From contig NC_134848.1 in NCBI RefSeq assembly GCF_965363235.1, positions 66,406,681 to 66,470,680 on the forward strand: 64,000 bases of DNA. Reading direction: 5' to 3'. The position numbers and the translations under genes are program-made. Each line of letters opens with the position of its first letter. Within the stretch, counting starts at the first letter, position 1. Origin of the DNA: Mytilus galloprovincialis. Its lineage: Eukaryota; Mollusca; Bivalvia; Mytilida; Mytilidae. The notes under the pieces were generated by a model. That model made no database searches and had not been told where the DNA came from. It saw only the letters and a list, made by a program, of their open reading frames with translations. Positions 11,760 to 53,164 of the stretch are shown piece by piece.

Positions 11760-11852
11760 AATGGAGTATCGCTTCTTCGTGTTGCCAAGGACAAAGCAAT
11801 CATTGAAATTTTAATTGAGAAAGGGATAAATGTTAACAGCTTAGATGTTAAT
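11760..11852 (+). CDS. ROCO exon 1 of those found: ankyrin repeat, type B
   Basis: 93 bases, phase 0 at both ends, acceptor ATTATAG and donor GTGAGT. Encodes 31 residues starting NGVSLLRVAKDK and including IIEILIEKGINVNSLDVN, an ankyrin repeat whose usual TPLH is changed to VSLL. Length and ending match exon 3, its duplicate. In the other pairs a type B exon follows a type A exon ending NAEN, so a further exon is expected upstream; none was found between 7.8 and 11.7 kb. Confidence 0.65.
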
Positions 11853-13190
11853 GTGAGTAAATGGTATCGTATCTAAACATTATTGTATGATTAAATAATC
11901 ATAATTAGAAGTATTCTCCTCTTTTTATTAAACATATTAAGACATATATAAGTGTGCTAAAGTGTGTATGTGTCTCTGTGTGGATATTATACCGTGTTAT
12001 CATGGGAGTTTTCTACTTATAGTGAAAAAAGGTCATCAAAATACTTTGTCATTGAATTATGGTGTTATGGAGGTGCAGATATTATGTAACTTACGATCGC
12101 TTTGAATTCGATTCTGAGCTTTGCTGCAATGAGAAATATTTATTGAATGACTGTCTCAGAGATGCATTTACCAAACCAGATAAAAGTTACCTACATATTT
12201 ACATATCTTCATGTCCCAATTGACCAGGAGCTTGTTATTAATTGTTTACTGTCTGATTTTGCTGTTAAAGCGGTTTTTTTAGTCTTATCTGTATTTTCTT
12301 GCTTAAATCTATTACAAATTTTGTTGGGACTGTTTGATACTTACTGTACAGCATGGATATGAAGATCTCATAGAAGTTTCCAACCATGAAATAAAACGTT
12401 TTTTAAGTTGTGATGAATTATTGTTTTAAGCCTAGTTCTCATATACGCTAAAGTGTACCAGTGGCGTTGACCACAAGAAAATCGTGAAAAAACGTTAACC
12501 AAATTTTGCTCCTAAAAGAGTTCATATGCACTTCAAGCCAGACGCAATTTACATGTGACAGACGGTCAAATCAACAGAACAGGTATTCAAAGTTTTAAAC
12601 TTACCTGTAAAATTGAACATACCAATCTTACCTTGTAAAATATATATCAGGGCTATGTGTTTTTTTTTGTATACTGGACATAATTCAATACATCGAAAAA
12701 AACAACGTTTCTTAGAAAATATAACTATTTTAAACGAAAATAATAACCTATAAAACAAAAATATTTGGTTCATAATCAAACTAAACAGACCGACAAATAA
12801 ATAACAATTATAATGATGCTCAAAATCTCTGCTACAAATAAGGTTTATGAGCCAGAAAAAAAATTACGTGTTTGCAATACTGACTTCTGGAAGCTTCCGT
12901 CTCATTTGATTAAAAATAGAAACGTAAGCACTGACTAAAAAATAGTTTCAGCTGTCAATGTTACTTGTATATCTGTATCACAAATCATTTACAAAAAAGG
13001 TAAAAAAATAAATAAACGAGAACACCGAATGCTAATCTCATTTAAAAAAAGGACTGTCCATAAAACTGACAAAAATAAAATAAATTAGAATAAAAAAAAA
13101 CCGAAACAATCATGTCATCAATAATGACAATACAAAAGAATGATAATAAGAACAACAATAATAATAATACCTATACTCATACTTGTGATA

Positions 13191-13192
13191 GT

Positions 13193-13229
<37 letters not shown>
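13191..13229. repeat. (TAA)n microsatellite
   Basis: About 13 trinucleotide units in the intron before exon 2, preceded by a less regular AAT/AAC-rich stretch from 13140. Confidence 0.85.
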
Positions 13230-13366
13230 TAGGGTTTATATTGCATGATTTTTCCCAAAAATTCATGCAATAACCCTTTTATTGTATAGCAATATAGTAT
13301 TTGAAGGTAAACATTGGTTTAAAGTAAGATTTTGTCGTTGATGACGTCATGACTTTTGAAGATTTA

Positions 13367-13380
13367 TTGCACTAGTGCAA
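13367..13380. promoter_or_regulatory. Perfect palindrome near a CRE-like site
   Basis: TTGCACTAGTGCAA is a perfect 14 bp palindrome. Twenty-five bases upstream is ATGACGTCAT (13341-13350), another palindrome with the CRE core. Both lie between two AAT microsatellites inside an intron, which suggests structure of an inserted repeat as much as regulation. Confidence 0.25.
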
Positions 13381-13441
13381 TATTATAACTTATCGTACGC
13401 TCACTTTAGTTACTTCTTGTGGGAAATATTATATTGGTATG

Positions 13442-13442
13442 C

Positions 13443-13479
<37 letters not shown>

Positions 13480-13492
13480 GTAATAATGATAA
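13442..13492. repeat. (AAT)n microsatellite next to exon 2
   Basis: About 15 units ending some 20 bases before the ankyrin exon at 13513. In translation it gives a run of isoleucine that is not part of the protein. Confidence 0.85.
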
Positions 13493-13512
13493 AACTTACT
13501 TATACTCTAAAG

Positions 13513-13608
13513 GGATCGACTCACCTTCACAATGCAATAAACGATGGAAATGATGAACTTACACATGTTTTGATCAAACACAAAGCTAATGTGAATGCCG
13601 AGAACAAG
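13513..13608 (+). CDS. ROCO exon 2: ankyrin repeat, type A, GC donor
   Basis: 96 bases, phase 0 at both ends. Encodes GSTHLHNAINDGNDELTHVL followed by IKHKANVNAENK, a full ankyrin repeat (xTxLHxA, then the ANVNA loop). The acceptor is CTCTAAAG. The donor is AG|GCAAGT, so the intron starts with GC instead of GT. The same unusual donor occurs after exon 4. Exon 3 continues with QGQTPLH. Confidence 0.8.
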
Positions 13609-13854
13609 GCAAGTACTTATTTAACATAGTTAAGAAAACAAGAACACTTCAGAAGCTACATGAAAATTCAACGACGCATGACAAAACTACAAAATAAAAA
13701 AGCACATAAATATAAACAAAAATATACTTTGAACCCCACATATTCTATTGGTGACTATGAGTTATTTATATCCTGCCAATAACATCGACACGATAATTAA
13801 GGAATAAATCGGTACACAATTTCTTGCTATTATGTAAATTTGTTTGTTTTTTAG

Positions 13855-13947
13855 CAAGGTCAAACACCACTACATATAGTAAATACAGCAGAAATTGCAA
13901 ATATTTTAATTCAGAACGGCGCCAATATGAACAGCTTAGATTTCAGT
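13855..13947 (+). CDS. ROCO exon 3: ankyrin repeat, type B
   Basis: 93 bases, phase 0, with a T-rich acceptor (TTTGTTTTTTAG) and donor GTGAGT. Reads QGQTPLHIVNTAEIANILIQ then NGANMNSLDFS, an ankyrin repeat with canonical TPLH. It shares the NSLD ending and length with exon 1, so exons 1-2 and 3-4 appear to be copies of one two-exon unit. Confidence 0.8.
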
Positions 13948-14109
13948 GTGAGTATATACAAACATTTGATAGTTGTTTGGTTGTATATATGATGTCGCGT
14001 GAATTTTGTTTGATAAATTGTTGGTAATTGAAATGTTGCGTGACAGCATTGCCTAACATTGTAAAGAATCAGGTCCTGTCCAAGATATTCAAGGAATTAC
14101 TGTAATATT

Positions 14110-14225
14110 GTTCTGTCTAAAAAGAAATTACACACAAAATGTGGTGTACACTGAAAAACCCGCGTAGCGTTTTTTTTTTAAAGTGTGCACCACATTTTTT
14201 ATGTTTTTTTAAATAGGCAGAAACA
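14110..14225. mobile_element. Small hairpin element
   Basis: Imperfect inverted repeat: TTCTGTCTA and AATGTGGTGTACACT on the left face AGTGTGCACCACATT and TAGGCAGAA on the right, around a turn containing CCCGCGTAGCG. It lies in the intron after exon 3 and has no coding capacity. Probably a MITE or foldback remnant. Confidence 0.5.
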
Positions 14226-16444
14226 ACATTAAAGTCATTTCTTATAATTTAATACTTCAATCCATTTTAAATCGGAGTAAATCATGAAAAAACGTTGGCT
14301 ACATCACGATCATGTGACAAAATTATGTCTATGAGCTGATAAACAAATCAACTTCAGCCAATCAGAAGACACGTTACATCCAAAATTAAATTAAAGAAAA
14401 GTATTAGGCAGTTGGATGAAAGGTCAAATGTGCAAATTCCCAATAATAGAAGAAACAAGATTATAAGAGCGTATTCAGACAATACCGACCACCAATAAAA
14501 CAATAAAAACAATCTAGCGATCACGAAAATGTCGAATATCATCAACTACAGTTCACTACTTACAATGTAAAGTAGACATATCTGTATTTATTCGTGGATG
14601 TTTTAAGTGCCTGTCGTACATCAACCATCATTCAAAAGCTGTGTTGAGTACTACTGTTGGCACATACATCAAGTCTGGTAGAACTTAATGGAAAGAATAA
14701 CACGAATAAAACAATTAACATTAATGTGACACCTGTTCAGAAGAAAATGCAATCTGTCAGTTGTAGAGTCAATTATGTTGTTCATCGGTTTGCTATTTTT
14801 GAAAGAAAATTTGTGTTTAATGTCATGCATATTTATAAGATAATTTTACTATCCCTGCCAAATCATATTTTGTGGTGTCAGTCACGATTTCGTGATATTT
14901 TACATCTCTAATATACCTATATGGAGGTGTTTCTTTCGGAACGATTGATATTTCGTTTGTAGAATCAACTCGGACGATACCAAGTTTAAATGAAATATGC
15001 TTCAAGGCTTAGCACATCGACCTGTGTAAGGTTTTCATTTTCCAGTGGTGAAAGATACAAACTAATGTTTACTTAAACATTTAATGTGTTTGTTAGTCTT
15101 CTCGTGTTGTTAACTCTATTAAACCAAGTGTTCCAAGTGGTGAAGTCATCCCTTCTGAAGTTTTACGGGCGCCATCGCCAATTAGCTGACTGTTTCGGAA
15201 TATAAATGTCCAAAGATGTATCATTTGTAATAACATGAGGAACACGACGGTTCAAACCTGTAGATCAGGATCTGCTTACCCTTCTGGAGTATTTTGGTGG
15301 GGTTCGTGTTGCTATGCTTTACGTTTCCTACGTTTTTGATACTAATGTTTGTCTATTGGCCTTTCTCAATTTTAGTCCTACCGTTGTCCGTTTATTTTCG
15401 ACACGTAAGTTTTAATGTCCCTCTGGTGTTTTTCGCCCTTCTTTGGTTGAGAATTATGGTTAAACATTTTAATTTTCCAACTTTGATAGGTAAAAGACAG
15501 CAACTATCCTCTCGTCCGTTTAGTTGTAATACCACCAAATTATGATACGTCACATCCGGTTGTATACGAAAATAGGTCGAAAAAAATATATCCTTGAGTT
15601 TGACAGTTGTAGGTAATTAATCCTACATTTTATTGCAGTAAAACATTAAATAAAGGGAGTAATTTGATTGGTTAACTGCCAGTGATGGTTCTTTATATTA
15701 AATGCAATGAAATGTTATGTGAAATTTTTCTATAGTACTGGACAGGACAAAACTTTACTCATGCCAAGTATTTCATTATTTGAAACAAAGATAAATTCTG
15801 CACATTTTTTTGAAAAGTGCAATTTAACAAAGACTAATAGGGGAAAGTCAATGGTGGTATTAAACCTTTATAAGACTGAATACCAAAGAAAGTGTCAAAG
15901 ACGAGCATGGTAAAGATATAAACAAATAATGAATTTAATAATACAAAATTAGTCTTAACACTTTACAACTCGCTTAGGGCGTATCAATACATGAAAGCAT
16001 CATAAAAGTGTTGTCAGTAAAAAGGATGTAATCCTGGACATTTTTGCATTAAACACCACTTGTCAAGACTGTCCGACTCCTGAAACCACTCAGCATTTTA
16101 TACGACAAGAAACGTATTAAAATATGTATTATATATTTTGTTAAGTAGAAGGACACGTTCATTTATCCGTAAAAAGCAATTCGCTTTACAAAATGAGGAT
16201 GAAACATGTATTGTTCACATAAAAAGAAGAATTCAAGAACTGTTAGAATATAATTGTTTGCAATAATTTTATCCTGTTGCAAATGTGGTTGCCTTATGCA
16301 ATTTGGAGATATCTGAAATTATGTGGCACTAAATGACTGACATTTGCTATATCTAAATTTTACTTGTAAGACATGAGACTTTTGATTACCTTATGCGATG
16401 AATTATTATAGTAAAGTACTATGTGTTTGCTCATCAATTTAAAG

Positions 16445-16540
16445 GGATGGACTCCCCTTCACAGTGCATCAAGAAATGGAAAAGCTGAAGTCATTAATGA
16501 GTTAATCAGGAACAAAGCCAACGTGAATGCAGAGAACCAG
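16445..16540 (+). CDS. ROCO exon 4: ankyrin repeat, type A, GC donor
   Basis: 96 bases, phase 0. Reads GWTPLHSASRNGKAEVINEL and then IRNKANVNAENQ, a canonical ankyrin repeat. The donor is CAG|GCAAGT, again a GC-AG intron. Together with exon 2 this suggests that the GC donor existed before the exon pair was duplicated. The next exon supplies the start of a capping repeat. Confidence 0.85.
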
Positions 16541-20193: not shown

Positions 20194-20219
20194 TTAAGAC
20201 ATAATTATCGTATATACAG

Positions 20220-20285
20220 GAGAAGACACCACTAGATTTACTTGAAGATTACTTTAGTCAATGTTGGCCTGGACAAATTTCTAAG
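20220..20285 (+). CDS. ROCO exon 5: partial ankyrin repeat, cap-like
   Basis: 66 bases, phase 0, with acceptor ATATACAG and donor GTACTT. Reads EKTPLDLLEDYFSQCWPGQI then SK. KTPLDL is the first helix of an ankyrin repeat, but the second helix and loop are missing, as in a C-terminal cap. It follows NAENQ of exon 4 smoothly and closes the first array. The sequence then restarts with full repeats in exon 6. Confidence 0.65.
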
Positions 20286-20842: not shown

Positions 20843-20941
20843 GGTGATTCATCTTTACATTTAGTATCGATGAAAGGAAATATGACCCAAGTGACAGCGT
20901 TGGTTAGTTTAGGTGCAAATGTGTCAGCTAGAACTACTAAG
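20843..20941 (+). CDS. ROCO exon 6: ankyrin repeat
   Basis: 99 bases, one 33-residue repeat, phase 0. Reads GDSSLHLVSMKGNMTQVTAL then VSLGANVSARTTK. The usual T-P-L-H is S-S-L-H, and the LGANVSA loop is canonical. The acceptor is TTCTTTGTAG and the donor GTTAGA. First repeat of the second array, whose exons are all 99 bases and start GD or GE. Confidence 0.85.
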
Positions 20942-25397: not shown

Positions 25398-25496
25398 GGT
25401 GAAACACCTCTACACCAGGCAATCCGAAATAAAAACGGTTCCATGGTGAATTGTTTAATACATCTGGGAGCTGATGTTTCAGCTTCAAATACTGAG
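25398..25496 (+). CDS. ROCO exon 7: ankyrin repeat, module a
   Basis: 99 bases, phase 0. Reads GETPLHQAIRNKNGSMVNCL then IHLGADVSASNTE. The acceptor is TTTATAG and the donor GTGAGA. It is closely similar to exon 9, sharing GETPL-x-QAI, NK, MV and VSAS at protein level and both splice sites, so exons 7-8 and 9-10 look like copies of a two-exon module. Confidence 0.9.
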
Positions 25497-26680: not shown

Positions 26681-26779
26681 GGTGACACGCCTCTGCATCT
26701 ATGTGCACGATATGGTTACCTGGATATTTGTGAGAGTTTAATTGTGTTAGGTGCCAATATATTTGCTACCAATAGCAAG
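26681..26779 (+). CDS. ROCO exon 8: ankyrin repeat, module b
   Basis: 99 bases, phase 0. Reads GDTPLHLCARYGYLDICESL then IVLGANIFATNSK, with intact TPLH and LGAN elements. The acceptor is TTTTTTGTAG and the donor GTTTGG. It pairs with exon 10 (donor GTTTGA; shared YG, D, LI-x-LGA and ATN). Confidence 0.9.
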
Positions 26780-28949: not shown

Positions 28950-29048
28950 GGTGAAACACCTCTATATCAAGCAATCTTAAAGAATAAAGATGCAATGGTG
29001 GAACGTTTGATCAATCTAGGAGCCAACGTATCAGCGTCAGATTCTGAG
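28950..29048 (+). CDS. ROCO exon 9: ankyrin repeat, module a copy
   Basis: 99 bases, phase 0. Reads GETPLYQAILKNKDAMVERL then INLGANVSASDSE. The H of TPLH is Y. The DNA around the acceptor (TTTTTATAG|GGTGAAACACCTCTA) is almost the same as at exon 7. The donor GTGAGA is shared too. Confidence 0.9.
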
Positions 29049-30130: not shown

Positions 30131-30149
30131 CGTACTATTGTTTCGGCTC

Positions 30150-32782: not shown

Positions 32783-32881
32783 GGTGACACGGCTCTGCAT
32801 AAAAGTGCCAGCTATGGTAACATTGACATGGTGGAGAGATTAATTGGGTTAGGTGCCGATGTTTCAGCTACAAATAAAAAG
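32783..32881 (+). CDS. ROCO exon 10: ankyrin repeat, module b copy
   Basis: 99 bases, phase 0. Reads GDTALHKSASYGNIDMVERL then IGLGADVSATNKK. The acceptor is TTTCTTCAG and the donor GTTTGA. It lies directly behind element copy B, so the intron 9 acceptor region has survived an insertion close by. Confidence 0.9.
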
Positions 32882-33310: not shown

Positions 33311-33409
33311 GGTGACACACCTATACATCAATCCGCTAGAAATGGTCAACTAAATACCGTTGGACTTTTAAAACTTCTTGGTGCCAATGTATTAGCTACA
33401 AATAACGAG
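33311..33409 (+). CDS. ROCO exon 11: ankyrin repeat
   Basis: 99 bases, phase 0. Reads GDTPIHQSARNGQLNTVGLL then KLLGANVLATNNE. TPIH replaces TPLH. The acceptor is TATTCTAG and the donor GTTAGA, the latter shared with exon 6. Intron 10 is only 429 bases, the shortest between the ankyrin exons of array 2. Confidence 0.9.
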
Positions 33410-34336: not shown

Positions 34337-34432
34337 GGTAAGACACCGAAAGACGTAGCTGGAGAAGCAATGATGGCAAAAACAAAGCTGTCTACAGTAG
34401 ACAGATACCACAGTTTGTTGAAATATCTACAG
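34337..34432 (+). CDS. ROCO exon 12: C-terminal ankyrin cap
   Basis: 96 bases, phase 0. Reads GKTPKDVAGEAMMAKTKLST then VDRYHSLLKYLQ. KTPKDVA starts like an ankyrin helix, but the rest lacks the LGAN loop and ends in a polar helix, as capping repeats do. The acceptor is TCATACAG and the donor GTATAA. It closes array 2 in the way exon 5 closes array 1. Confidence 0.8.
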
Positions 34433-37400
34433 GTATAAATCATAAATAGTTCTCTACTAAGAACAACGACAAATGTTTTCTGTTCTAAATAAAGAGTGTT
34501 TGGAATATTTGACCATAGCTATAATAAATGAACAAAGATTTCAGACTTTTGTTATCGAGATAGCAACCAAACCTACACCGAATAGATAATCATTTGGATT
34601 CTTATTTTTAAAACGGGAGGCTCCTGGAATTGTATGTTGTCTGTTATCTTGAATAGGAAAACAAGCCAAACATCAAAACAGCCATGGTCTGTATTTATAC
34701 AATACTGCTTTACAGCAGAAAATGCCTTATTTCAGGTAAAATTTTCTAAGTCATTTTTTTTTTAAAATTAAATATACAAATAACAGGTTCGGCAATTGGT
34801 GCAGTTCCTTCACCGGAATATGTGACTTACTTAAATAATTTCTGCTTTTCAACATAAAGAAAGACAAGGTATTCTATAATGGCAGATATAGGGACGAAGG
34901 ATTCATAATATAAGCTGGAACATCAGATTAAGTAATTGATTTTGTTCGTCTAGCAAATACTTATAACCCCTTATGAAAGTTAACCTATGATATATCAACC
35001 ATAAAATGTCTTTCGTATATGTTGATGTAATTAATGGTCATAGATTTACTACACATGGCATTCTTTACCCTGCAATACATTTAAAGATACCAATTCTTAT
35101 CTGTATTTGCACAGAAATAGCTGTCACTCACAGCATGTATTTAGAGGATTTATTAACGGTGAAGTCATACGGCAAATTAGAAACATTAACGACCGGGTTC
35201 ATGGTTCCTTTATCTGGAATCCACTAATATCGGTTGTATCTATATATTATTATGCATCATAGAATTACCATCCCAAGCTTTTTATTCACATTAGATACGC
35301 AAAATTTTTCAGACCAGGCGGTGTTATGCAACCCATTTCAGTTTAAAAGATTCAACTAATTTTGAGAGCTCTAAAAAGTTTTACTGAATGACAAACACAT
35401 TGTTTACTGATCACAATTGAAATACATACATCGGTACAGGCAATAACAGTTAGGAAGATAGCTTTTATATTTGAACATGCAAAATAAGGATTATGCTGTA
35501 TGCATTGCACACATTTTGACGAATCATAACTTCATTATATCGAACAGCAAACCAGGGGACTCAACTTTTTGTTACTTAATCTTCGTTAAATTCCGTACAA
35601 ACAGAGGAACATTGACGGATCATATGTTCTTACAATAAATTATCCACTAAATTGACAAAACAAATGGTTCGCAGTGAAAGAAAATCTTTAAAAATACGTA
35701 GAAACTGTTTATTCGCGTATTAACCATATGTGGATTCTGAAAAAAAAACACAAACTCTAAACCTTCTGGATCATTTGAAATCTCGATCTTTCTCTAAAAT
35801 TATTTATATCACAACATTAGTTATTCAACCCTGCATACCACTATTCCGATGTGAAATGGAAATGTTGTCTTAAGGAAATAATATACAAAGCTTTTACGCT
35901 TGGTAGCATAAAGAGTAAAATCACAAAAATGCTCAACTCCGAGGAAAATTTAAAACGGAGAGTCCTTAATCGACACGCTATATGTTGTCAATACAACGAC
36001 ATTTTATGCGACTTTCATAGTAGTGTGAGTTTTAGATAGCTGTAAAACCAGGTTTAAACCACCATGTCATGCGTCAGAAAATGCCTGAACCACGTCATGA
36101 ATATGTATTTAAGCTTTTGATTTTGCATTTGATTAGAGACTTTCGGTTTCGAATAATTCTCGGAGTTGAGTATGTTTGTGTTTTTTAATTTGTATTGCTT
36201 TGTGATAACATAGTGCATAGTTTGTTAATAGTAAAACATGACACACAGACGAACAAGTGATCAATATGTATGAGTTTTTTGTATATGATTTACAACATAT
36301 TTGCTAAATTTTTTCAACCATTTAAAGGCACAAACTTTTTCTTAATTTCATAGAGTCGGAGTTCCCTCAAACATTTATAAATAAATTATTTATCAACAGA
36401 GACCTTGTTAATACATATTCCGTATCAACTTCACAAGTGAAATATGATAGTTTTAAGAATATAAAGTCTATATATAAATTTGTTTATTCAGGTTACAACA
36501 CAATGTTGACTGCTGTATCCCAATTTTTGATATTTTCGCCATTGCTTACACATCAAAATAACGTAATTATATGCGACTCTAATACAATTAAGAGGTTTAG
36601 ATAGATATAAACCCAGGTTTAATTAATCTTTTTCGACATGAGGAAATACATGGGGAAATACCTGTTTAAGTCCTGAATTTGTCAGGTGTTTTCTATTCGT
36701 TTGATGTGCTTGAGCTTTTGTATTATGTGATGAAGAACTTTCGATTTTTTTCAACATTTTTACCATTTTTTTCAAAAAATGCCCTGTATCAAGTCAGGAA
36801 AATGGCCATTATACACTATATACTATACATTATAGTTCGTTTCTGTGTGTGTTATATTTCGGTGTTGTGTCTCTGTTGTGTCGTAGTTCTCTTATATTTG
36901 ATATGTTTCGCTCAGTTTTAGTTTGTAACCCGGTTTGTTTTTGTCTCTATCGATTTATTAATTTTGAACAGCGGTACACTACTGTTGCCTTTTTTTACGT
37001 GTTCCTAGTGATAAAATCATTTGGTCTGTTTTCAGTGGGATGTTGACTAACTTTAATTGAAAAACTACTTTTAATACGTATTCACACTTTCGACCTGTAT
37101 ACACATTGTATTTGATAATTTTAATAGAAATCATTTTTGTTCTTCAATGAAAGGTCATCCATTGTTGATAAAAGACATAAAGTAAAATCACAAAAATACT
37201 GAATTCCGAGAAAAGTTCAAAAAGGAAAGACCCTTATCAAATAGCACAATCAAAAGCTCAAACAGATAAAACGAATGAATTATAACTGTCATATTCCTGA
37301 CTTGCTGCAGGCAACACTCCATTGGAAGGAACAGAAAAACGTGATATATTTGCAAACTGTTAGTTTTTCATATTCCAAACGTCCTTCTGTCGGATTCAAT

Positions 37401-37522
37401 TATTTGCAGAGTATTTTTTTATCATTTTTATCATTTTTGCCATCTGTTTGTTTTTTGTTTATTTATGTACATCAATTCATTGAAACTCATGTTCTCTAAC
37501 GGTCGTTATTGTCTGTGTTTAG
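34433..37522. other. Intron with several repeat copies
   Basis: A long intron. CATATTCCTGACTTGG-family copies lie at about 35910-35975 (+), 36015-36185 (-), 36590-36690 (-) and 37180-37305 (+). A minus-strand GGCAACAGTAGTAT-family copy lies at about 36820-37005. T-rich frames in these copies are not genes. Nothing is recognised at 34440-35900. Confidence 0.5.
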
Positions 37523-37640
37523 AAAGAAATGGACTCAATGGATAACACAAAGAAACAATTACATGTTACTGATACCAAGAAAAGGAATGGTAGTAAACAG
37601 TCAAACTCTAATAACTCAGCACAGGCATGTGTCAGTAAAG
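37523..37640 (+). CDS. ROCO exon 13: charged linker
   Basis: 118 bases, starts in phase 0 and ends in phase 1. Encodes about 39 residues rich in K, N, S, Q and T (KEMDSMDNTKKQLHVTDTKK, then a KQSNSNNSAQ stretch), which looks disordered. Acceptor GTGTTTAG, donor GTAAGC. It links the ankyrin cap to the Roc-proximal exon and fits in phase on both sides. Confidence 0.65.
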
Positions 37641-38111
37641 GTAAGCGTTCGGTGTGTTGTCAGTTTCACATGAAAAGCTGACCGAATTGGCTCATGTGCT
37701 GAATACTCAGTAGTCAAACCAAAGATAACAGACATATCCGCCTTTCCGAATCAGTTATAGCTCTAAAAGGATGTGTTAGTTGTTTAAGTTCGTTTTGTAT
37801 GTTTTAGCATGCTTTCGTTGGTTTCGAATGGTTGCATACAGCACATTTTTCTATTTCAAAGAAACAAAAATACATCGTGCTATATTATCACTTTCAATGC
37901 AAAATATTTTGATTTGTACTATTATGAAGAATCTTGTAATTTTTGCTCGCAAATTTGTGAAATGTTATAACTAAAATGACACATGCATGTCAGCCAAAGT
38001 TCAAAACCAAAGCTCGCTTTTATTTCATAAAAACATGAGACAAATCAAAATAAGCATGATTTGTGACATAGGTGTCATATGTGTTGTTCTGTAGAACTGG
38101 TAATCGTTTAA

Positions 38112-38658
38112 GGTAGATACATGGTATACCGCCATCTTGGATTGTACAATCACAGTAAAAAATCGGTCTAGTTATTTGCCTAAAACTGCAGAGACAGATT
38201 TGCAATTTAAAGGTTATACTGTTTAATAATATAAAGAAAACTTGGTAATTTTTTGTACAATTCAAAATATTAAAACAAATATCATTTTTTTTTTTTAGAA
38301 TCATTTTTGGGCCATTTAAGGGAAGATAACTCTTTTAGTGAAAAAAATTTTACTTGTAGCAAGAAAACAATTTCGGTGACACAATTTTTTTTTTTATTTT
38401 CTTATAATATATTACAAAAACTATCTTTTCACAATTTATTTCAAAATTCTATTTCATAGATTTTTTTTATGCACACAAATGTGTTTTTCCATGAACAATC
38501 TAACCAAATTTAGGCAATTTTGAACGACATATAGCCTGAAAAATAGCACGGTGACCCATACTTTTTATTATATATTTTTGAAAAGAGCATAGTAAAATCT
38601 TCATTTTGGCTAAGTATTAGAAAATTCTGTCTCAAAAAATATTTACTTATGATCTACC
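38112..38658. mobile_element. TTAA-flanked MITE with GGTAGAT ends
   Basis: A perfect TTAA lies on both sides (38108-38111 and 38659-38662). The left end is GGTAGATACATGG; the complement of the right end is GGTAGATCATAAG. At 547 bp, without coding capacity, it fits a piggyBac-type MITE. It sits in the intron between exons 13 and 14. The 94-codon minus-strand frame overlapping its left part is not a gene. Confidence 0.7.
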
Positions 38659-39295
38659 TTAAATGATTAATTTAAAACATAAAACTATATGCATGACAAT
38701 ATCAATAGGATTGTGCCACTGATACAGTATGTAACACATTTTGGATGTTGTCAGAATATTACGCATGTTGACTGTATTTCTGTCACGTCGTGTGTTCACT
38801 TTAGCGACATATTCTGACATTGCAATATAAGCCGGAGGTTTTGTTAGCCATACCACCTAATTGAACCCACCAACAGATTCTTAAAATGTTCTGTACCTAG
38901 TTTTTTGATGCAGCTCAGTGTTTCTGATGTTCCCTTATTTTTCTCTTAAACTTAAAGTGGTTTATTTTACGACTTGGATATTTTCCCTTTCTATTGGTTT
39001 ATGACTTGTTGCATTAAGGTTAAAATGTACTATATTTTTTTTCAATTTGAGAAGTATTTACTTTAACATTTAAACGTGTTGATTATAAAAGAATGAAATA
39101 AGCTGTGGGGTATACATTATTGTAAAAATATATATTGTTTTCCAACCATTATCAAATATGCATCGAAAGTGTTGGAGAATTCTGAAAAATGCTAATCACA
39201 AGTGCTATAAATATGTATTGTAAGATTTTAACAATTATAAAAGGTATACCAAAGATGAACAATTCTGACATTATGAATATACTTTTGTTTTTTAG

Positions 39296-39394
39296 AAAAA
39301 GATTGTCAACTGCCGTGGTTGGTCGATGCTGACGACTTCCAACGTATGCTTTCACATGGAGAATATCGGTCTTACGAAAACCGTTTGAGTCTGG
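39296..39394 (+). CDS. ROCO exon 14: segment leading into the P-loop
   Basis: 99 bases, phase 1 at both ends. Reads EKDCQLPWLVDADDFQRMLS, then HGEYRSYENRLSLG. The acceptor is TGTTTTTTAG. The donor G|GTAGTA was chosen over the in-frame stop about 60 bases further on, because this joint gives a glycine and then GPCRAGKST, completing the P-loop. The acidic-aromatic helix followed by a short strand is what precedes the P-loop in Roc domains. Confidence 0.75.
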
Positions 39395-40566: not shown

Positions 40567-40719
40567 GTGGCCCATGTAGAGCAGGAAAGAGTACCTTAGC
40601 AAGTGTGCTTATTGGTGAAAAAATTCCGCAAAAGTGGATTTCAACAGATGGACTGGTAATATTTTTTGGAAGGAATGGTATTGATATTGAAAACGAGAAA
40701 ATGGTCCCCCTCAAAAAGG
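40567..40719 (+). CDS. ROCO exon 15: Roc domain, P-loop and switch I
   Basis: 153 bases, phase 1 at both ends. Encodes GPCRAGKSTLASVLIGEKIP, a Walker A/P-loop (G-x-x-x-x-G-K-S-T) that binds nucleotide phosphates, then WISTDGLVIFFGRNGIDIE. STDG is the usual position of switch I in Roc domains. The donor is G|GTACGT. All P-loop residues are intact, so GTP binding is likely. Confidence 0.9.
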
Positions 40720-42084: not shown

Positions 42085-42609
42085 GTGAACGTGGTCATGG
42101 AGTAATTGCAAAAATTCTTCGAGGTGCACCAGATGTTCGCAAAACATCTGGAATGGTAACACAAGGGCAAACATCCAGTTTAAGTAAGCAAATTCATGCC
42201 AGTTCAACAGATACAACAGACGGTGCTTCTCAAGCTAAAACTCTTCAGAGATGTAAGGACACTATCAACATTTCAAAACACGAGTTGGGGCATGATAAAT
42301 TGTTATCCGTAGCGAAACCTGACCAGAAAAATTTAAGTACTGACATTTTAAACGAACGCACATCCACGGCACCAACAGAAATCCAAACCTTAGAATTCCA
42401 GAAGCTGCAACTTCAAACAGATATTTTAGAGGAAGTGCGAAATCGGCAATATAAAATACAAATAGCACCTTCTGACCTGATTGACTTTGGTGGCCAGAAA
42501 TCATATGACATGACCCATCAACTCTTCATACAGCATACCGGGTCTTTTCTTCTGATGTTTGACGGAAGATATGGTTTACATGAGGAGATAGATGGAGTTA
42601 CCGCTAAAG
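42085..42609 (+). CDS. ROCO exon 16: Roc insertion and DFGGQ switch II
   Basis: 525 bases, phase 1 at both ends, about 175 residues. The first 100 or so are rich in S, T, Q and K (for example QGQTSSLSKQIHASSTDTTD) and look disordered. Then come a conserved strand YKIQIAPSDLIDFGGQ with the G3 motif D-x-G-G-Q, and HQLFIQHTGSFLLMFDGR, the next beta strand. Acceptor CTTATACAG, donor G|GTTAGT. The frame is open upstream of the acceptor by chance. Confidence 0.9.
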
Positions 42610-43822: not shown

Positions 43823-43926
43823 ACGTACTTAAACACTGGGTTGATTCTGTTTTGGCATATATTGAAGATACAGCAGACATTATGCCAATGATTATGTTTG
43901 CTGCAACACACAGGGACCAGTGTGAG
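43823..43926 (+). CDS. ROCO exon 17: Roc domain, THRD motif
   Basis: 104 bases, starts in phase 1 and ends in phase 0. Reads DVLKHWVDSVLAYIEDTADI, then MPMIMFAATHRDQCE. HWVDSV is the helix after switch II, MPMIMFAATH is a buried strand, and THRD stands where the guanine-specificity NKxD motif lies in Roc domains. Acceptor GTGCTTCAG, donor GTAAAT. It joins exon 18 as DQCE-SNAAEL. Confidence 0.85.
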
Positions 43927-44535: not shown

Positions 44536-45236
44536 ATAAATAAAGGCAACAGTAGTATACCGCTGTTCAAAACTCATAAATCCATGGACAAAAAACAAAA
44601 TCGGGATAACAAACTAAAACCGAGGGAAACGCATTAAATATAAGAGGAGAACAACGACATAACACTAAAATGTAACACATATAGACAAAATCCCACGAGA
44701 ATAACAAATATAACATATATATATAACATCAAAACCAAATACATGAATTTGGGATAGACAAGTACCGTGACACGTCTTATCGCAATGTGAATTTACACTC
44801 AAAAATAAGAGAAAACAAACGACACAACGTTATAATGTAATACACACAGAAACGAACTATAATATAACAATGACCATATTCCTGACTTGGTACAGGGCAT
44901 TTTTAAAGGAAAAAATGGTGGGTTGAACCTGGTTTTGTGGCATGCCAAACCTCGCACTTTTATGGCCATGTGAAATATAACATCAAAATGACAACACAGG
45001 ACTACAATATAAATAAATTGGAGAACACAATAGACAAAGAATCACACGAACAACAGCCAACAAAAGGCAACAAGTTCAAAATATTAATACGCCAGAAGTG
45101 TATTTTGTCCACACAAGACCTATGCGTGACGCACAGATACAAAAGTTTGAAAGCCGAAACGAGTACAAAGTTGAACAGCATCGAGGACCAAAAGATCAAA
45201 AAGGTTGTGCCAAAAACGGCAAGGGTTTTCCGTTAA
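44536..45236 (+). repeat. GGCAACAGTAGTAT-family repeat, second long copy
   Basis: Matches 10724-11385 from AAATAAAGGCAACAGTAGTA to about 45125. The 99-codon frame at 44937-45236 lies mostly inside it; it is not supported as a gene, because the corresponding part of the other copy is not open. Confidence 0.6.
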
Positions 45237-45454
45237 GTTACCAGAAAATCCCTATAATTTAGAGTAATTTATACTTTTGCAAACAGTAAATTTAATAAAA
45301 TGAATATTCAAAAGATGTACATGATAAAGCTGAAGTATTAACTAATTACAGGAAACAACTGAAATACATTAATATAACCAGACATTTGAAACACAAAAGT
45401 AGACACATCCGAATACGTTTAAACCTCTACGCCAAGTGACGTCCTATTTGAAAC

Positions 45455-45547
45455 TGAAAAATGACGAAAAAATGACGTCATTAGAATTAGTAAAACAGAG
45501 CATCAAAAAATGAAAAATGACGAAAAAATGACGTCATTAGAATTAGG
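45455..45547. promoter_or_regulatory. Two direct repeats each with a CRE-like TGACGTCA
   Basis: The phrase GAAAAATGACGAAAAAATG followed by ACGTCATTAGAATTAG occurs twice, about 56 bases apart. TGACGTCA is at 45473-45480 and 45529-45536, and a near match TGACGTCC lies at 45437. TGACGTCA is the CREB/ATF target. It lies in the intron just before the COR exon; enhancer function is conjecture. Confidence 0.35.
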
Positions 45548-45990
45548 ATTAATTTAAGATTATATATTTGAACTAAGTACTGATATTGCATTTAATAACA
45601 ACAATAAAAACGTTGCAATAAACATTAATGAATAATACAATACAAAACAGTGAATACTTTATAACTTTTTTCTTGCAACTCTCTCATCCAATACATTTTA
45701 TAACACATAGTATCATCGGTTTTCTTTCGATGTTGTTTGGTTATTGATATGTGTTTGGTGGTATTTGCATCAATGTCAAAATGTTTAACTGTTGAACACT
45801 GTCGTATAATGATGTGGTAGAAAACGACAACAAAATATAACATTGTGAATCTACCAATTGCAAAAGCTTTTCAGATATGATATTCACAAACATGTTTTAC
45901 ATAATCGTACATCATTAAGGAACTTTGGAAATTATCAGGAAGTCAATAAATATAACGATATTCATTATTTCTGCTATTTACTTCTTTTAG

Positions 45991-47219
45991 AGTAATGCCG
46001 CAGAATTGAAGAAACATTTCATCAAAGATATAAATGAAATTTTCTACAAGCACGAGAAGAAACATCACATTTATCTAGAAACAGTATATTTCATCAACGG
46101 ATTAGATAAAAATGACGCCGAAATTCGACGCTTGACAAATCAAGTGGTTCAGTTTGCAATGAAACAGTTATCCTGGGGTCAGCGGCGACCTATGCAATGG
46201 GTCCCATTAGAGCTTCAAATTGCCAACATGAGAATGAAGCATGTGCATATAATAACAAAGGAGGACCTTCATAGCGTTAACAAGTTAAATAATGACCTTG
46301 CCTTGAACGAAAGTCAGTTAAACGACTTTCTTTTAGTTCAACATTCTCTTGGTAAGCTGATGTATTACAATTTGTCAGGGTTAGACAAATTTATCGTCAT
46401 TCATCCTCCTACTATGGTTAATATATTGAGGTCATTTGTAACAGATGAAAAATTCTTTCCAGTAGATCATAGACTTAAATCAAAAAAATGAAGGAATCTG
46501 GACAAATCTGCAAAACAAACCTTTTAAAGCTTTGGCAACAATCCCATGTGCATACATACATGCCCGATGATGTCACCAAAGAATTTGTAACAAAGCTTCT
46601 AATACATTTAGACATTCTCATAATACCAAAGGCTTTCACACATACTAATGATGTATACCTGGTACCATGCATGATCAAGGCTATACGACCATCGGATTTC
46701 AATTCGATCGACAGACAAGGAGAACAAACGATATATCTAAGGTATTCATTAGCCCGTCATTCTATTCCTACTGCACTGGCTTACAAAATAATTGGAGCAT
46801 CACTCAACCTGTGGCCTCTGAAAAATGACAGCAAACCATGTCTGTATCAGAAGGCTGCAATTTTTACCGTTAGTGAAGATAATGAACTCAGAATATGGTT
46901 AGAGGATAATCGAGTTATGGTTTGTATGACACACAAAAAATCGTTACATTTATCACCGGATGTTGCAGCCAGTGTTCAAGAATGCCTCACTAAAAATCTG
47001 GAGTCCTGTCTATTATTTCATTATAACAGCTTCGGTAAAAGAACGAAATCAATATTTCTGTCAGAATTATACACTTTAGAAGTAGGCATTCAATGCGGCA
47101 ATAACATTTGCTATATATCGTCACCAAAAGTAATGAAAAAGGACAGTTTTCAATGTAACCATGGTAACAGGGGAACGAAGCATGATACACGATACTTAAA
47201 GTACTGGTTTTTCGACAGG
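45991..47219 (+). CDS. ROCO exon 18: COR domain with apparent frameshift
   Basis: A 1,229-base exon, far longer than the rest, with acceptor CTTCTTTTAG and donor G|GTAAGA. The first part (to 46491) ends the Roc domain and begins COR: WVPLELQIANMRMKHVHI, FLLVQHSLGKLMYYN, FIVIHPPTMVNILRSFVTD. The second part lies in the next frame from about 46483: LLKLWQQSHVHTYMPDD, LLIHLDILIIPKAF, VYLVPCMIKA, then FQCNHGNRGTKHDTRYLKYW at the end. Both parts read as one COR domain, but they meet at a run of seven A (46482-46488); eight would keep one frame. Exon length is one short of a multiple of three, which fits a single lost base. It could be an assembly error, an allele or real decay. Confidence 0.85.
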
Positions 47220-47673: not shown

Positions 47674-47778
47674 GATAAGCCATACTGTAAACCAACTTAT
47701 TTTCGCGTGCGAGAGTTTCGAGAACTTGTCATAAATCAATCTGAATTAAATAAATATGGACCATTAACTAAAACTGAG
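47674..47778 (+). CDS. ROCO exon 19: post-COR linker, start uncertain
   Basis: The frame reads DKPYCKPTYFRVREFRELVI, then NQSELNKYGPLTKTE, and ends at a GTAAAC donor in phase 0, which fits exon 20. The end is better supported than the start. Two acceptors preserve the phase of exon 18: TTTATGAG before 47674 and GATAAG before 47680, neither with a good pyrimidine tract. A third, AAAG at 47657-47660, would need a different end for exon 18. Confidence 0.5.
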
Positions 47779-48385
47779 GTAAACACATTAACTTGAAGAG
47801 GAAACAACTTTTAACAAAAAAAAAAAAATAATAATGCCGACACACATTCAAACGGACTAAATGTTTTTCATTATTAACCAAAACGTTTTTTTACAATTGA
47901 AATGTCAGAGCTTTTCACTGACGTCATAGCCGACGATAATTCTGGTACTATCAGTACATCAATAATAAGACCCATCAACTGGTAATAGATAAAAGGCAAC
48001 ACCTTATGAATTTTCTTGATATTTCTTTAATAATTCTTTTTATTGAATTCGTGTTATCACGAAGAAGTTAGTTTTTCATTTGGTAATTTTAATAACGTTT
48101 TGGTAACATCTGCTTTTCCTCTTTCTTTTGATTTTTCATCAGATTTCAATTTCTTTGGCATCTACATGATCAATTAATTCCACAGATCCATACAGTCATG
48201 AAAGTAGAAACACATGTTTATACAAGAATACAGTTATAAACATAATACATTAACCTTAATAATTTAGATTGTTTTTAAACTTTGATATTACTTTTCATTT
48301 CATTATTTGTTCCAAATTTTGCTATAATTACTAACATGTTATTTGATTAAGAATTACGATGACACTTTAGTTTATACAATTGCAG

Positions 48386-48416
48386 TCACAAGAGAAGTGC
48401 AGAAGTGGGTGTCAAG
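48386..48416 (+). CDS. ROCO exon 20: 31-base microexon before Death domain 1
   Basis: Bounded by CAATTGCAG and GTATAT. Starts in phase 0 and ends in phase 1, exactly what exons 19 and 21 require. Encodes SQEKCRSGCQ plus the first base of a glycine codon, a short Cys-containing linker. Its position and phases parallel the 28-base exon 22 before Death domain 2. Confidence 0.6.
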
Positions 48417-48429
48417 GTATATATTTATA

Positions 48430-49475
48430 GAAATAAACATATGTGGATTAACCGCAAATGAGACAACTCTCTATCTAAGTTACAACAAATGGAAGTGTTA
48501 AACGACATTGACTACATGTAGCTATACAGCCCTTGCACGGTCCAAGTTACTATATACTATGTAAAAGTAAATACTGAAACCTTTGGCGTTTAAAAATCTT
48601 AGTTAATACGTGCCGCTATGTTCGCCCTTTATTGATATTATACAAAAACTACTCCAACAGCTTTGTAACTCATACAAAATATCAGGCTTATAATTGTTTA
48701 AACAATACGTGCGTCATCTAATGAATGCATATCACCACAGTGCCATACGAATAAAGCATTGCAAAAAAAAAAATAGATTTAAAAAAAAAAACATACAGGA
48801 TAAAGATAACAAATATAACACAGATTAAGTAAAACGAAAACGATATCACAATCAGAGTAAAAGAAAACAATATGCTATTGAACATATATTTAGTCATTAA
48901 AAACTTGAAACTAGATATATTGGATTTAAAATGCGTACACTATAGTCTTCGATACATGTTTTTAAATACACTTAGTTGTTATTGGCCTTGAACTCGCTGT
49001 CAGTAACAGCCATTACTCTCCGAACATTACCTTGTGTCTTTTCTGTGTTATGAATTTATGATTGAGCTCAAACCCCCTGTTTGTGTTTTTAAAAGACGTG
49101 TGTTTGCATTAAATCACCAGAAAGTGAACCCTCTCCAATTTTTTAACTGATTTTTAAGTTTGTTCCGATGCAAGTCAATGGAAGGGTTCATTTTTGTGTT
49201 TGTAGATCGTCATGTTGTAAATTATGCCTTTGGTTTTGTTTTATGAATGGTTTTATATTGTGCATAACGGGGACGTTTATAGCTATATATATGATTTTGG
49301 GTTTTACTTATTTTTGACTGTATTATGGTTGCCTAACGTGTCTTACATCAACATCATTTAAACTTTAATGGATAGTTTTCTTATTGACAATCGAAACACA
49401 TTCCTTTATGATAATCAATTGGATAAGTTTTGCATTGTCCAATTACAAGTCATTGTTTGTCATTTTTAGTCTTTT
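48430..49475 (+). repeat. Intronic repeat fragments
   Basis: A GATGTGGTATGA-family fragment lies at about 48440-48500 (GCAAATGAGACAACTCTC). From about 48960 the sequence follows the T-rich 3' tail seen at 22950-23160 (GGCCTTGAACTCGCTGTCAG and CTTGTGTCTTTTCTGTG), so it is a tail of a Penelope-like element without its coding part. Confidence 0.4.
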
Positions 49476-49560
49476 TGTATGTAGATAACACCAAACCATT
49501 TATCTTCACTTGTTCTTTAAATTTCGTAATTGATAAATGATAAATAAGTATAATTTAAAG

Positions 49561-49838
49561 GTCTATCCATGGATGAATTGAAAACAGAGCCAAGTGATAA
49601 GCATCTGGTTAGATTGGTTAGCCAGATGGGAATTTCGTCATTTAAAGATTTTTTCATTCACTTGGGAATGGAGGGAAGGGAATGGGAGAATACTATTGAT
49701 ATGTATGAAGGTCACAGCGCATACGGGAAAATGGCGATGGCTCTACACAAATGGAAGCTTTCTGGATCAAAATCTACCTTCAAAGACCTTGCCGAAGCCT
49801 TGACGAAAGTGAACCTCGATAAACACATCATATGTCAG
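49561..49838 (+). CDS. ROCO exon 21: Death domain 1
   Basis: 278 bases, starts in phase 1 after TTTAAAG and ends in phase 0 at GTATAA. Reads EPSDKHLVRLVSQMGISSFK, then FFIHLGMEGREWENTIDMY, then MALHKWKLS, STFKDLAEAL and VNLDKHIICQ. This is a Death-domain pattern: P-x-x-x-L-x-x-L, a Gly after helix 2, the tryptophan of the HKW helix and the final AL-x-x-V-x-L. Death domains bind other Death domains in apoptosis and Toll/NF-kB signalling. The ATG at 49569 is internal. Confidence 0.85.
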
Positions 49839-50608
49839 GTATAACTATTGAGTGATGTATTACGCTAAATATATTTGTAGGAAAATTTATCGACAACAAA
49901 ATATGCTGTTGTGATGACCAGAATTATCTCATTTTCAAAATTTTCAAATTACAAACGTAAGTGCGAATGATAGTGAAAGTCACTGAATGTTTTAATAGCT
50001 TTTTTTTTCTCACTGTGAGGAATATAATAGTTTATTAACATTAAATATTTTATGTGCAATATGTGCAATCTTCTCTCATTTTGATACCACAGTAATCACA
50101 AAAAAACACACACACAACAAAACTAAAGAAATAAGAAGAAAACAAAGTATAAATCATCTAATAAAAAACCGTCTCCATTGTTCTGTTTTCTCTCATCAGG
50201 GAAGATATATTGTGGTAAACTTCCATAGTAAAATATTGATATATCAGGTAATTGACAAATATGCAAAGGCACCCTGGACCATTCAAATTATCAGCACGAT
50301 ACATGTGTATACGTTTCATCTGGAATATATATGATTATACATACACAATGCAGGACGTGTCTCCAACATGCCACACATGTACAAGCAGGGTTAAAGGACC
50401 CATTGAAAGATATATTGAACATTGTTTTGATAAATTATCGACTATGTATATACAGTGTATGGTGTCAGACCTGTAAGATAATAAGTTATTCAATAAAGCA
50501 TGTCTGTCATCAAGTTATCACATATTTAAACTACTGCTATTTGGATAGCGAGACAAAACCGCCTGCACTGTGTCAATTGCTTTAGAACACCCGGCAACCT
50601 AGACTTAA

Positions 50609-50949
50609 GGATGTTCGCTTGTCATGTTTTGGAATGTTTGTAAGATTTTCGAAATTCTCTGGTTTTATCCATTTGAATGCCTTAAAAATTTTGCCCAATT
50701 ACCCCCATTTTTCTTTTTATAAATCTTTCACATGTATAATGCCAAGCTATTAATTGATTTTTGATACTTGTCAATGATTAAGCTATGAAAAGTCAAGAGA
50801 GAACATTTTCCAGCCAAAATTTTGAAGGATAATAACAAGCACATTGACCTCTATATTTTATTGCTCTTTTGCTTCCTTTATTTATCACTTATCAATATTT
50901 ACTAGCATTTTGAAAAGCTTATTATTTTGAAAGTGAGAAGCGAACTCCT
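50609..50949. mobile_element. TTAA-flanked MITE with GGATGTTCGCTT ends
   Basis: The left end GGATGTTCGCTT follows TTAA (50605-50608). The complement of the right end is AGGAGTTCGCTT, beside TTAA (50950-50953). About 340 bp, not coding, a piggyBac-type MITE by its target site. It lies in the intron between exons 21 and 22. I recognise the left sequence as common in mussel genomes. Confidence 0.65.
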
Positions 50950-51632
50950 TTAATCATTAAATCAGCTTTCGGAGGCATAGTATTTACTTTCCTCGTCAGT
51001 AGAATCTAGAGTTTTACAAAGTACATGATACATGTATTTTGCTACTGCCGTGATATCTTCAAAATACCCTAATCCCATAGCTGCATTTGAATTTCCAAAA
51101 AATTTAATGACGCTTGTGGCGAAAAAGATTCGTCGAGGTCCACATGGTCCAATCTATGGAAACTTCTGACTGGCCAATAGTTCAATGCTGGTAATTTGAA
51201 AAAAGTCAATATATTGTGTACTAAGTATAATAGAAAATGATAGCTGATATATAGTAAAATAGGTAATTTTATTTCCCCGACTACTATAACTCAGTATATA
51301 ATTGTATGAACGTAATAAAAACAGAAAAATATCAATACAGGTAAATAGATTTTTGATTTACCAAAACATTTAATTTATGAAAATTATATATTAAATGTAT
51401 CCGCTACAAGACGTGGCGACCAATAAATTTACATTATGTAGTCAGTCAGATTGAAATACAGAGCTGTTAAACACGCATACCTTTGAACGATCTGCAACGT
51501 TTCTTGTTTATAGTTGAAAGAATATTTAGGATCCTTTTGTTAATTGTTAATTATGGGTAGAGTAGTTGTTGTCGCATTGAAAATATAACTAACGTCCCTT
51601 CTTTCGCTATAATTAATTTTCTTTTTTATTAG

Positions 51633-51660
51633 GTCTTAAGAGAGAAATCAAAGCCAGTTG
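51633..51660 (+). CDS. ROCO exon 22: 28-base microexon
   Basis: Lies between the acceptor TTATTAG and the strong donor GTAAGT. Starts in phase 0 and ends in phase 1, joining exon 21 (IICQ) to exon 23 as VLREKSKPV. It completes the last helix of Death domain 1 and the short spacer to the next. Confidence 0.7.
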
Positions 51661-51740
51661 GTAAGTTATATAACTTAGGATTACAATGTAAGTGTTGAAT
51701 GTAAAACTTTCCGAATATTCACAAAGAAAATCTAATTGTT

Positions 51741-52410
51741 TAGCTCACCTTGCACAATGGGCCAAGTATGCTTTTCTCATCACTTGGTGTCCGTCGTTCG
51801 TCGTTGTTCGTCGGCGTCCTTCGTCAGTTAATTTTTACAAAAGTCTTCTTCTCTGAAACTACTAAGCCGAACTTAACCAAACCTGGACACAATCATCACT
51901 AGGATATTTAGTTGAAAAGCATTTAGAGCAAATCTGACATGGGGTTAAATTGTTAATCAGGTTGAAATATGTCTGCCCTGAAATTGTCAGATGAATCAAA
52001 CAATCCGTTTTCTTGGGTTTCTACCCCTGAATTGATTTTTGGTTATTACATGTATCTTCAATATTATTTTATAAAGAGATAAACTATATAAACAGCAAAA
52101 AATTTCAGTAAAGTAAGACCTACAAATAAGTCAAAATGACAAAAATAATCAATTAACCCCTTGAGAAGTTATTGTCCTTTACAGTCAATTTTTAACAATT
52201 TTCATAAATTTTATAAATCTTACAAAATATTTTCCTCTGAAACTACTTGTCCAAGTTTATTATAGATAGAGATAATTGTAAGCAGCAATAATGTTTAGTG
52301 AAGTAAGATCTACAAAAGCATCACCATCACAAAAACACAATTTTGTCATGAATCCATGTGTGTCCTTTGTTTAATATGCACATAGACCGTGGTGAGCGAT
52401 ACAGGCTTAT
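51741..52410 (+). mobile_element. TAGCTCACCTGG element, copy C
   Basis: Starts TAGCTCACCTTGCACAATGG, with a short GTC-rich tract at 51790-51825, and ends near GGTGAGCGATACAGG. Shorter than copy B (about 670 bp), with internal deletions. In the intron before exon 23. Confidence 0.6.
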
Positions 52411-52952
52411 TAGAAACCAATCATGCATACGTTCTAGATAACTTGAGAATGTATATGCGAATCGAAAATACCTACATGTATAACTAATTATGAACAATTT
52501 CCCGTGATGAATACGAAAAGAAAATCAGACAAAAAAAAAATGACGAACAAAACAAATCAGTACACAACTAAAATCACGAGAAATAAGTCATTATGCGGTC
52601 TGAAGTTAACTAAAACTGGTCAAATGAATATGCTATCCGATTTGCTTTACTTCAAGCTAACTGTTTACTATGCGCAAATTGTAGCAGATGCTTTATTCGT
52701 TTACTTTAAAACATTTTGCCTGGAAACGGTTTGTTTAATTTTCTGAAAAGATTTGTTGTAATGAATCAATACAAATTAACAATTAATTACAATTGAGCAA
52801 AAAGAATAACACTAGAAACGTTATAGAAATCGGAAGGGTAAGAAGTGCAAAAGCAATAAGGGCCACGTACTGTGTCAATGCAGAGGCATTACGATTATAA
52901 ATTACTATGTTAATTCATTTCTTTTATCTAATCTTTTTACATAAAAAAGCAG

Positions 52953-53164
52953 ACTACAATCACCAGGACACCCCGACTGATCAAGATTTAAAAGAATTGT
53001 CAAAGCAGATAGGGAATTGTCCGTTGCAATTAGGAATAGAGCTAGGATTAAGTTTCAGAGAAGTTGAGCAGAGTTTGTTCAGTTTTCCAAGAGATTTATC
53101 TGGTTTGGTAGAAGATATACTTATGACGTGGAAAAAAAAAGTCAAAGATCAAAACCATCCATAG
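52953..53164 (+). CDS. ROCO exon 23: Death domain 2 and stop
   Basis: Terminal exon, phase 1, TAG at 53162-53164. Reads DYNHQDTPTDQDLKELSKQI, then LQLGIELGLSFREVEQSL, then DLSGLVEDILMTWKKKV. The LGIELGLS, EVE and ILMTW elements are those of a Death domain, ending soon after helix 5, so the sixth helix is very short. The acceptor is ambiguous: AAAAAAGCAG offers AG at 52948-52949 and 52951-52952, both in phase, differing by one alanine. The preceding ATG at 52907 is intronic. Confidence 0.8.

Follow-up and report, generated by a model that had tools for sequence, protein, structure and literature searches.

The 64,000-nt stretch of DNA analyzed here, herein referred to as the window, covers positions 66,406,681 to 66,470,680 of NC_134848.1 in the genome of the mussel Mytilus galloprovincialis (GCF_965363235.1, 1.38 Gb). 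Exons for ankyrin repeats, a Roc GTPase domain, a COR domain, and two Death domains were found in the window, all on the plus strand. As read from the DNA, 13 ankyrin exons are followed by four Roc exons, one COR exon, and the exons for Death domain 1 and Death domain 2, and the phases of these exons are compatible except at one gap. We chose the exon borders ourselves, and agreement between borders and phases is thus no independent test of the chain. We favor, with some confidence, the reading that this locus is one copy, disrupted in the assembly, of a lineage-expanded ROCO gene, the intact members of which are predicted to form ligand-sensing, GTP-switched scaffolds with two Death domains. 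Positions below are those of the window.

All 13 ankyrin or ankyrin-cap exons lie on the plus strand in phase 0-0; their acceptors are AG and their donors GT or GC. They form the two arrays described in an earlier note on this DNA. The first array begins with an N-cap exon at 1202..1294 (KLFWAVKLGKVTHVKNLIAEGASVHYKKSYF; borders tcttgtag and gtaagt). Its match to our ankyrin hidden Markov model (HMM) is at chance level (E-value 9.5), and it was identified by reading, phase, and borders. Short-type ankyrin exons were found with the HMM at 11760..11852, a type also present in the paralog at C11:79.15 Mb, and at 13855..13947. Two further ankyrin exons lie at 13513..13608 (HMM) and 16445..16540 (consensus scan and HMM); both end in GC donors, at 13608 and 16540, in a gcaagt context. 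The array ends with a capping ankyrin-like exon at 20220..20285 (EKTPLDLLEDYF), recognized from sequence reading and phase only. The second array comprises six exons of 33 codons. The first of these, at 20843..20941, was found by the consensus scan and the HMM, and those at 25398..25496, 26681..26779, 28950..29048, 32783..32881, and 33311..33409 by the HMM and by Pfam Ank on joined exons. The regions of the last two are present in all three tandem copies of the gene (see below). A capping ankyrin-like exon at 34337..34432 (GKTPKDVAGE...LLKYLQ), identified by reading, phase, and borders, ends this array.

In total, 10 of the 13 exons are clear ankyrin exons with strong HMM matches, found first by the consensus scan and then by the HMM. 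Exons of the window itself had served as seeds for the HMM, and independent support therefore comes from Pfam. Six joined exons of the second array, joined by phase and not by a transcript, matched Pfam Ank with an E-value of 2.1e-38, as tandem 33-residue repeats; single exons gave weaker matches. None of 20 shuffles of the window had an ankyrin HMM match at a domain E-value below 1e-3. A genome search with the joined repeats was swamped by unrelated ankyrin genes.

The gene extends upstream to at least 1202. A start at 11760, as the earlier note had placed it, is thus too late, the in-phase N-cap exon lying 10.5 kb before that position. No start codon was found for the gene, and the 10 kb that precede the window (L065) contained no ankyrin exon that we could find. 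A motif scan for a kinase catalytic loop found none on either strand of the window or in the 10 kb upstream; the 5' end of the gene, and with it a kinase, may lie further upstream, beyond the scan.

The Roc domain is encoded by four exons. The beta-1 exon lies at 39296..39394 (PWLVDADDFQRMLSHGEYRSYENRLSL; phase 1-1) and is 88% identical over 34 aa to the paralog L058. The P-loop exon at 40567..40719 contains GGPCRAGKS and switch I. The beta-1 and P-loop parts form one in-frame exon in the paralogs L067, L108, and L109. The exon at 42085..42609 contains DFGGQ (G3) after a variable linker, and the exon at 43823..43926 contains the G4 motif FAATHRD; both were identified by motif and by Pfam Roc. 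GGPCRAGKS, DFGGQ, and THRD are all intact in the window, in keeping with the P-loop, DxGGQ, and T/NKxD-type motifs of a ROCO-type Roc domain, and DFGGQ is kept in all six Roc exons fetched. The Pfam Roc match in the window has an E-value of 2e-5 and a score of 25.2 bits, below the 27-bit cut-off. The COR exon, 1229 nt in length, lies at 45991..47219, and its frame is broken near 46482. As in the ROCO family, COR directly follows Roc: Pfam COR-A matched immediately C-terminal to Roc with E-values of 7e-4 in the window and 2.5e-7 in the paralog L014, both below the cut-off. No COR-A match was found for the full COR exon of a tandem neighbor or for the paralog L012.

The Death domain 1 exon lies at 49561..49838 and was identified by a family profile and, in part of the family members, by Pfam. 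The Death domain 2 exon, at 52953..53164, was identified by a family profile and ends early from one extra A. Two microexons are needed, one between COR and Death 1 and one between Death 1 and Death 2, because the flanking phases demand them. The candidate for the former lies at 48386..48416 (SQEKCRSGCQ; phase 0-1); a 40-nt exon in the paralog at C11:79.16 Mb is loosely similar, and the 26-nt counterpart in the paralog at C11:82.19 Mb has the wrong phase. The candidate for the latter, at 51633..51660 (VLREKSKPV; phase 0-1), is similar to a 28-nt exon in the paralog at C11:82.19 Mb. Phase closure fails once along the chain, between 34432 and 39296, and one exon is therefore missing from the model in 34433..39295. 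A candidate at 37523-37640 fits in phase, its similarity to one in a paralog is weak, and it is not claimed. Thus, the chaining of exons by phase proposed in the earlier note is mostly compatible with the DNA, with one exon missing and two microexons required.

Family profiles confirmed both C-terminal exons as predicted Death domains, in line with the tandem Death domains proposed before. In comparisons with solved domains, a Death 1 profile of 20 rows, none of them chosen by Pfam, matched CRADD (E-value 6.9e-9), RIPK1 (4e-4), and FADD (0.01). A Death 2 profile of eight rows not chosen by Pfam matched CRADD (3.5e-7), FADD (1e-5), RIPK1 (6e-4), and PIDD (9e-4). Among the 20 fetched Death 2 regions, 15 had been picked by Pfam Death, and 10 of these are rows of one alignment. 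When such rows are included, the figures are partly selected: 14 of 17 members match Pfam Death, with E-values of about 5e-9 for FADD and CRADD. Five distant Death 2 members had been selected without Pfam, and all five matched Pfam Death (E-values 1.6e-6 to 0.0023); two exceeded the cut-off. Compared by hhalign, the Death 1 and Death 2 profiles matched each other with probabilities of 97.2 to 98.2, the value against the Death 2 profile without Pfam-chosen rows being 97.2.

An unrooted tree that included CRADD, RIPK1, and FADD placed all 20 Death 1 rows and all 17 Death 2 rows on separate sides of a branch with support of 99/97, which suggests that the pair arose before the family spread. The median ratio of nonsynonymous to synonymous substitution rates (dN/dS) was 0.20 over 10 pairs of Death 1 sequences and 0.11 over 21 pairs of Death 2 sequences. 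For COR, the median was 0.149 over 45 pairs from 10 loci (an eleventh, L023, had no match), and these ratios are rough because dS is 1 or more in 39 of the 45 pairs. From the separate clades and the low dN/dS, the pair of Death domains looks old and retained. The possibility that Death 2 is a spurious exon was ruled out by the profile matches and the selection seen in dN/dS.

Matches to these exons are abundant in the mussel genome, and the counts are lower bounds: at least 150 for COR, 150 for Roc, 102 for the P-loop exon, 129 for Death 1, and 113 for Death 2. Of the 150 COR loci listed, 66 (including 46 of the top 50) are preceded by a Roc match and followed by matches to both Death exons, all in the same orientation. 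Both Death exons were found downstream in 72 of these 150 loci without the use of Pfam matches for Death 2, and in 92 of them (47, 23, and 22 per fifty) when Pfam Death was allowed for Death 2. Flipped-strand controls gave 0 of 150 for both the 66 and the 92, which rules out chance grouping of exons. Exons that lie within 40-60 kb of one another need not share a transcript, and where copies are clustered in tandem, an exon found downstream may be part of the following gene. Part of the family copies occur in such clusters. Additionally, Pfam Death was listed at 104 sites in the genome; a family COR exon precedes 46 of these by no more than 45 kb, and 20 overlap Death 2 matches. Pfam COR-A matches in the genome, all those listed being over the cut-off, were found at no fewer than 150 loci, nine of which overlap the 150 family COR loci; the union is at least 291 loci. 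Only 2 of the top 40 COR-A loci have Death exons downstream, so many COR-A loci appear to be other ROCO genes. The window gene is not a singleton: it is one of three tandem copies within a large family.

The Ank-Roc-COR-Death-Death architecture is thus supported as a predicted gene design, resting more on the family than on the copy in the window. The copy in the window itself is frameshifted and one of three, which the earlier note did not recognize.

Several observations weigh against our reading. The COR profile matched no solved structure. The Death 1 exon of the window matches Pfam Death only with an E-value of 0.0018, and no Pfam family was matched, at an E-value of 1, by the window Death 2 or by either of two close relatives. 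Profiles built from close relatives only are weak, the best match being RIPK1 for Death 1 (0.53) and CRADD for Death 2 (0.0021). Pfam Death matches Death 1 in 5 of 20 members, and Death 1 matches overlap none of the 104 genome Pfam Death matches listed. For Death 1, AlphaFold prediction from the single sequence gave a poor model (mean predicted local distance difference test score 64.7), and fold searches with it gave no Death-domain match. The window copy carries two frame breaks. One exon of the chain is absent between 34.4 and 39.3 kb, and no ankyrin exon was found upstream of the Roc beta-1 part in L067, L108, L109, and L110, where 6.9, 9.8, 9.7, and 3.6 kb were searched.

The last two points bear on the link between ankyrins and Roc. 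Although we regard it as unlikely, the window may hold two adjacent genes, one with ankyrins only that ends at the 34.4-kb exon and another for Roc-COR-Death-Death that begins in the interval from 34.4 to 39.3 kb. The last ankyrin exon (34337..34432) reads into TAA, and AATAAA follows at 34488 and 34523, 56 and 91 bases on; 34432-34530 is thus a possible end of an ankyrin-only transcript. However, a good donor (CAG followed by GTATAA) sits before the stop, and AATAAA is common by chance in DNA with 69% AT. The phase that does not close between the last ankyrin exon and the beta-1 exon also fits two genes, as do the four members without ankyrin exons in the 3.6-9.8 kb searched and an in-frame ATG inside the beta-1 exon of L108. 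On the other hand, an AG acceptor-like sequence precedes the beta-1 part in all five paralogs examined, which points to an exon upstream of it, and the divergent paralog at C11:79.16 Mb has one ankyrin exon and one short-type ankyrin exon upstream of Roc beta-1 on the same strand. From phase, strand, and this one divergent paralog, ankyrins and Roc are likely linked in one gene. The ankyrins may be confined to one branch of the family, since no ankyrin exon was seen nearby in the four other members.

At L108 (C8:82131400-82141399), a 235-aa open reading frame was found at +3904, about 5.8 kb upstream of the Roc exon and on the same strand. From its motifs, we take it to be HSPA12/HSP70-like; it may represent a separate gene or a different N-terminus.

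The same contig carries two further copies of the gene, 114.7 kb upstream and 115.1 kb downstream. Identity to the window is 99.0-99.8% for pieces of the upstream copy; for pieces of the downstream copy, it is 99.2-99.7% in COR, 96.1% in Death 1, and 86-94% in Death 2. One ankyrin region is 100% identical to the window in the upstream copy and 95% in the downstream copy. In both neighbors, the reading frames of the exons for COR, Death 1, and Death 2 are uninterrupted. The window COR exon lacks 7 bp that are found in both (1229 versus 1236 nt), and the resulting frame shift leads to a stop. The break is therefore a deletion, as both neighbors have the seven further bases and an open frame there. 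A programmed -1 frameshift at this site, where an A tract resembles a slippery heptamer, was ruled out. In Death 2, the window has one extra A relative to the upstream neighbor, leading to a premature end. With these two frame breaks, the window copy probably makes no full protein and is probably a pseudogene or null allele.

It is doubtful that the window copy is instead a functional allele in which both breaks are assembly errors. The Death 2 break concerns one base in an A tract, a common type of consensus error, and the upstream neighbor is nearly identical over the pieces compared; the COR break, in contrast, is a 7-bp deletion, unlike a one-base homopolymer slip. An assembly error could thus explain the one-base change but is a less likely source of the 7-bp one. 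More doubtful still is that the three copies, about 115 kb apart, are unmerged haplotypes, that is, allelic variants of one gene set apart by the assembly. The near-identity of the upstream copy and the window and the 100% and 95% identities in the ankyrin region would fit such an artefact. However, the three copies are ordered on one contig with similar spacing, the downstream copy drops to 86-94% near Death 2, and about 1.06 kb of extra intron sequence at 44541-45603 is present in the window copy alone and missing from both tandem neighbors. Elsewhere in the window, two retrotransposon copies with reverse transcriptase (RVT_1) lie in opposite orientation at 61253-61903 (plus strand) and 61981-62982 (minus strand).

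DAPK1 has ankyrin repeats before its Roc domain. Human ROCO proteins are known mainly through LRRK2 and DAPK1, and the coupling of their GTP switch to output is debated (PMC6337361). The Death domain is placed in the DAPK1 group (group 3) of ROCO proteins, together with a kinase, and follows Roc-COR at the C-terminus (PMC6337361). The mussel genes share the latter order and differ in having two Death domains instead of one, no kinase found, and many tandem and dispersed copies. Candidate immune receptors of brown algae, built of leucine-rich repeats (LRR), ROC, and COR, are likewise an expanded ROCO set with one repeat per exon in uniform phase (PMC11378527). This exon structure would allow cassette-like change of repeat number. 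The algal exons encode LRRs in phase 2, with alternative splicing reported and no Death domain (PMC11378527), whereas those of the mussel encode ankyrin repeats in phase 0. Roc-COR is also joined to death-fold domains in placozoan ROCO proteins with CARD or Death, which comprise at least 17 genes of mixed design (PMC11378527); the mussel family is larger and of one design. The sea-anemone protein NG3 combines Roc-COR with a Death domain outside DAPK1 but has a kinase, TIR, and one Death domain, and ankyrin repeats are unreported in the excerpt (PMC5094078). TIR-ROCO proteins of Aplysia place Roc-COR in immune-type architectures of a mollusc, with TIR instead of two Death domains and only a handful of genes (PMC9334734). 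In prokaryotes, AP-GTPases with repeats and variable C-terminal domains are described as conflict systems (PMC8195603). No description of an Ank-Roc-COR-Death-Death protein or of a large bivalve ROCO expansion was found in a partial literature search, with most subscription journals outside its scope. That search also gave no support to the earlier note's remark on known bivalve expansions of ROCO-like sets, though such an expansion was seen in this genome.

NLR and PIDD-type receptors combine a repeat sensor, a nucleotide switch or trigger, and a death-fold output. By analogy, the mussel gene would have the same layout of sensor, switch, and death fold, with a ROCO GTPase in the place of a NACHT ATPase or autoproteolysis. 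In intact members, the ankyrin array may bind a ligand or a guarded host protein. GTP exchange and COR-mediated dimerization would then engage both Death domains, which are mutually distinct and each conserved, and these may seed Death-domain assemblies with separate adaptors. Such a scheme would parallel that of NLRs, with their ATPase and death-fold domain. The assignment of sensing to the ankyrins, GTP switching to Roc-COR, and adaptor recruitment to the Death domains follows by analogy with DAPK1 and the brown-algal ROCO receptors. An NLR-like, GTP-switched Death-domain scaffold would be the most likely role of the family, and we infer that this role may be immune. The least likely of the alternatives is that the gene belongs with DAPK1, as a relative that has no kinase, and acts in the cytoskeleton or in cell death generally instead of in immune sensing. 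Its Ank-Roc-COR-Death order is that of DAPK1 (for the Roc, COR, and Death domains, PMC6337361) but no kinase motif was found in the window and the 10 kb upstream, two Death domains are present, and the copies are many and partly in tandem clusters.

DEATH is one of the domains for which dispensable mussel genes are enriched (PMC7653742), which makes the family a candidate for immune variation between animals. With 46 of the 104 listed Pfam Death matches downstream of its COR exons, the family would account for much of the detectable Death-domain content of this genome. Tentatively, a mussel lineage may have built NLR-like intracellular receptors on the ROCO switch, with about 92 loci or more carrying two distinct and conserved Death domains and some also carrying ankyrin arrays of one repeat per phase-0 exon; array length could vary as exons are gained, lost, or spliced, and the dual-Death output would be left unchanged. 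A large natural family in which a GTP switch is coupled to a pair of Death domains, and in which no kinase was detected, would provide many natural variants and, in the assembly of the Death domains, a readout that is simple to follow.

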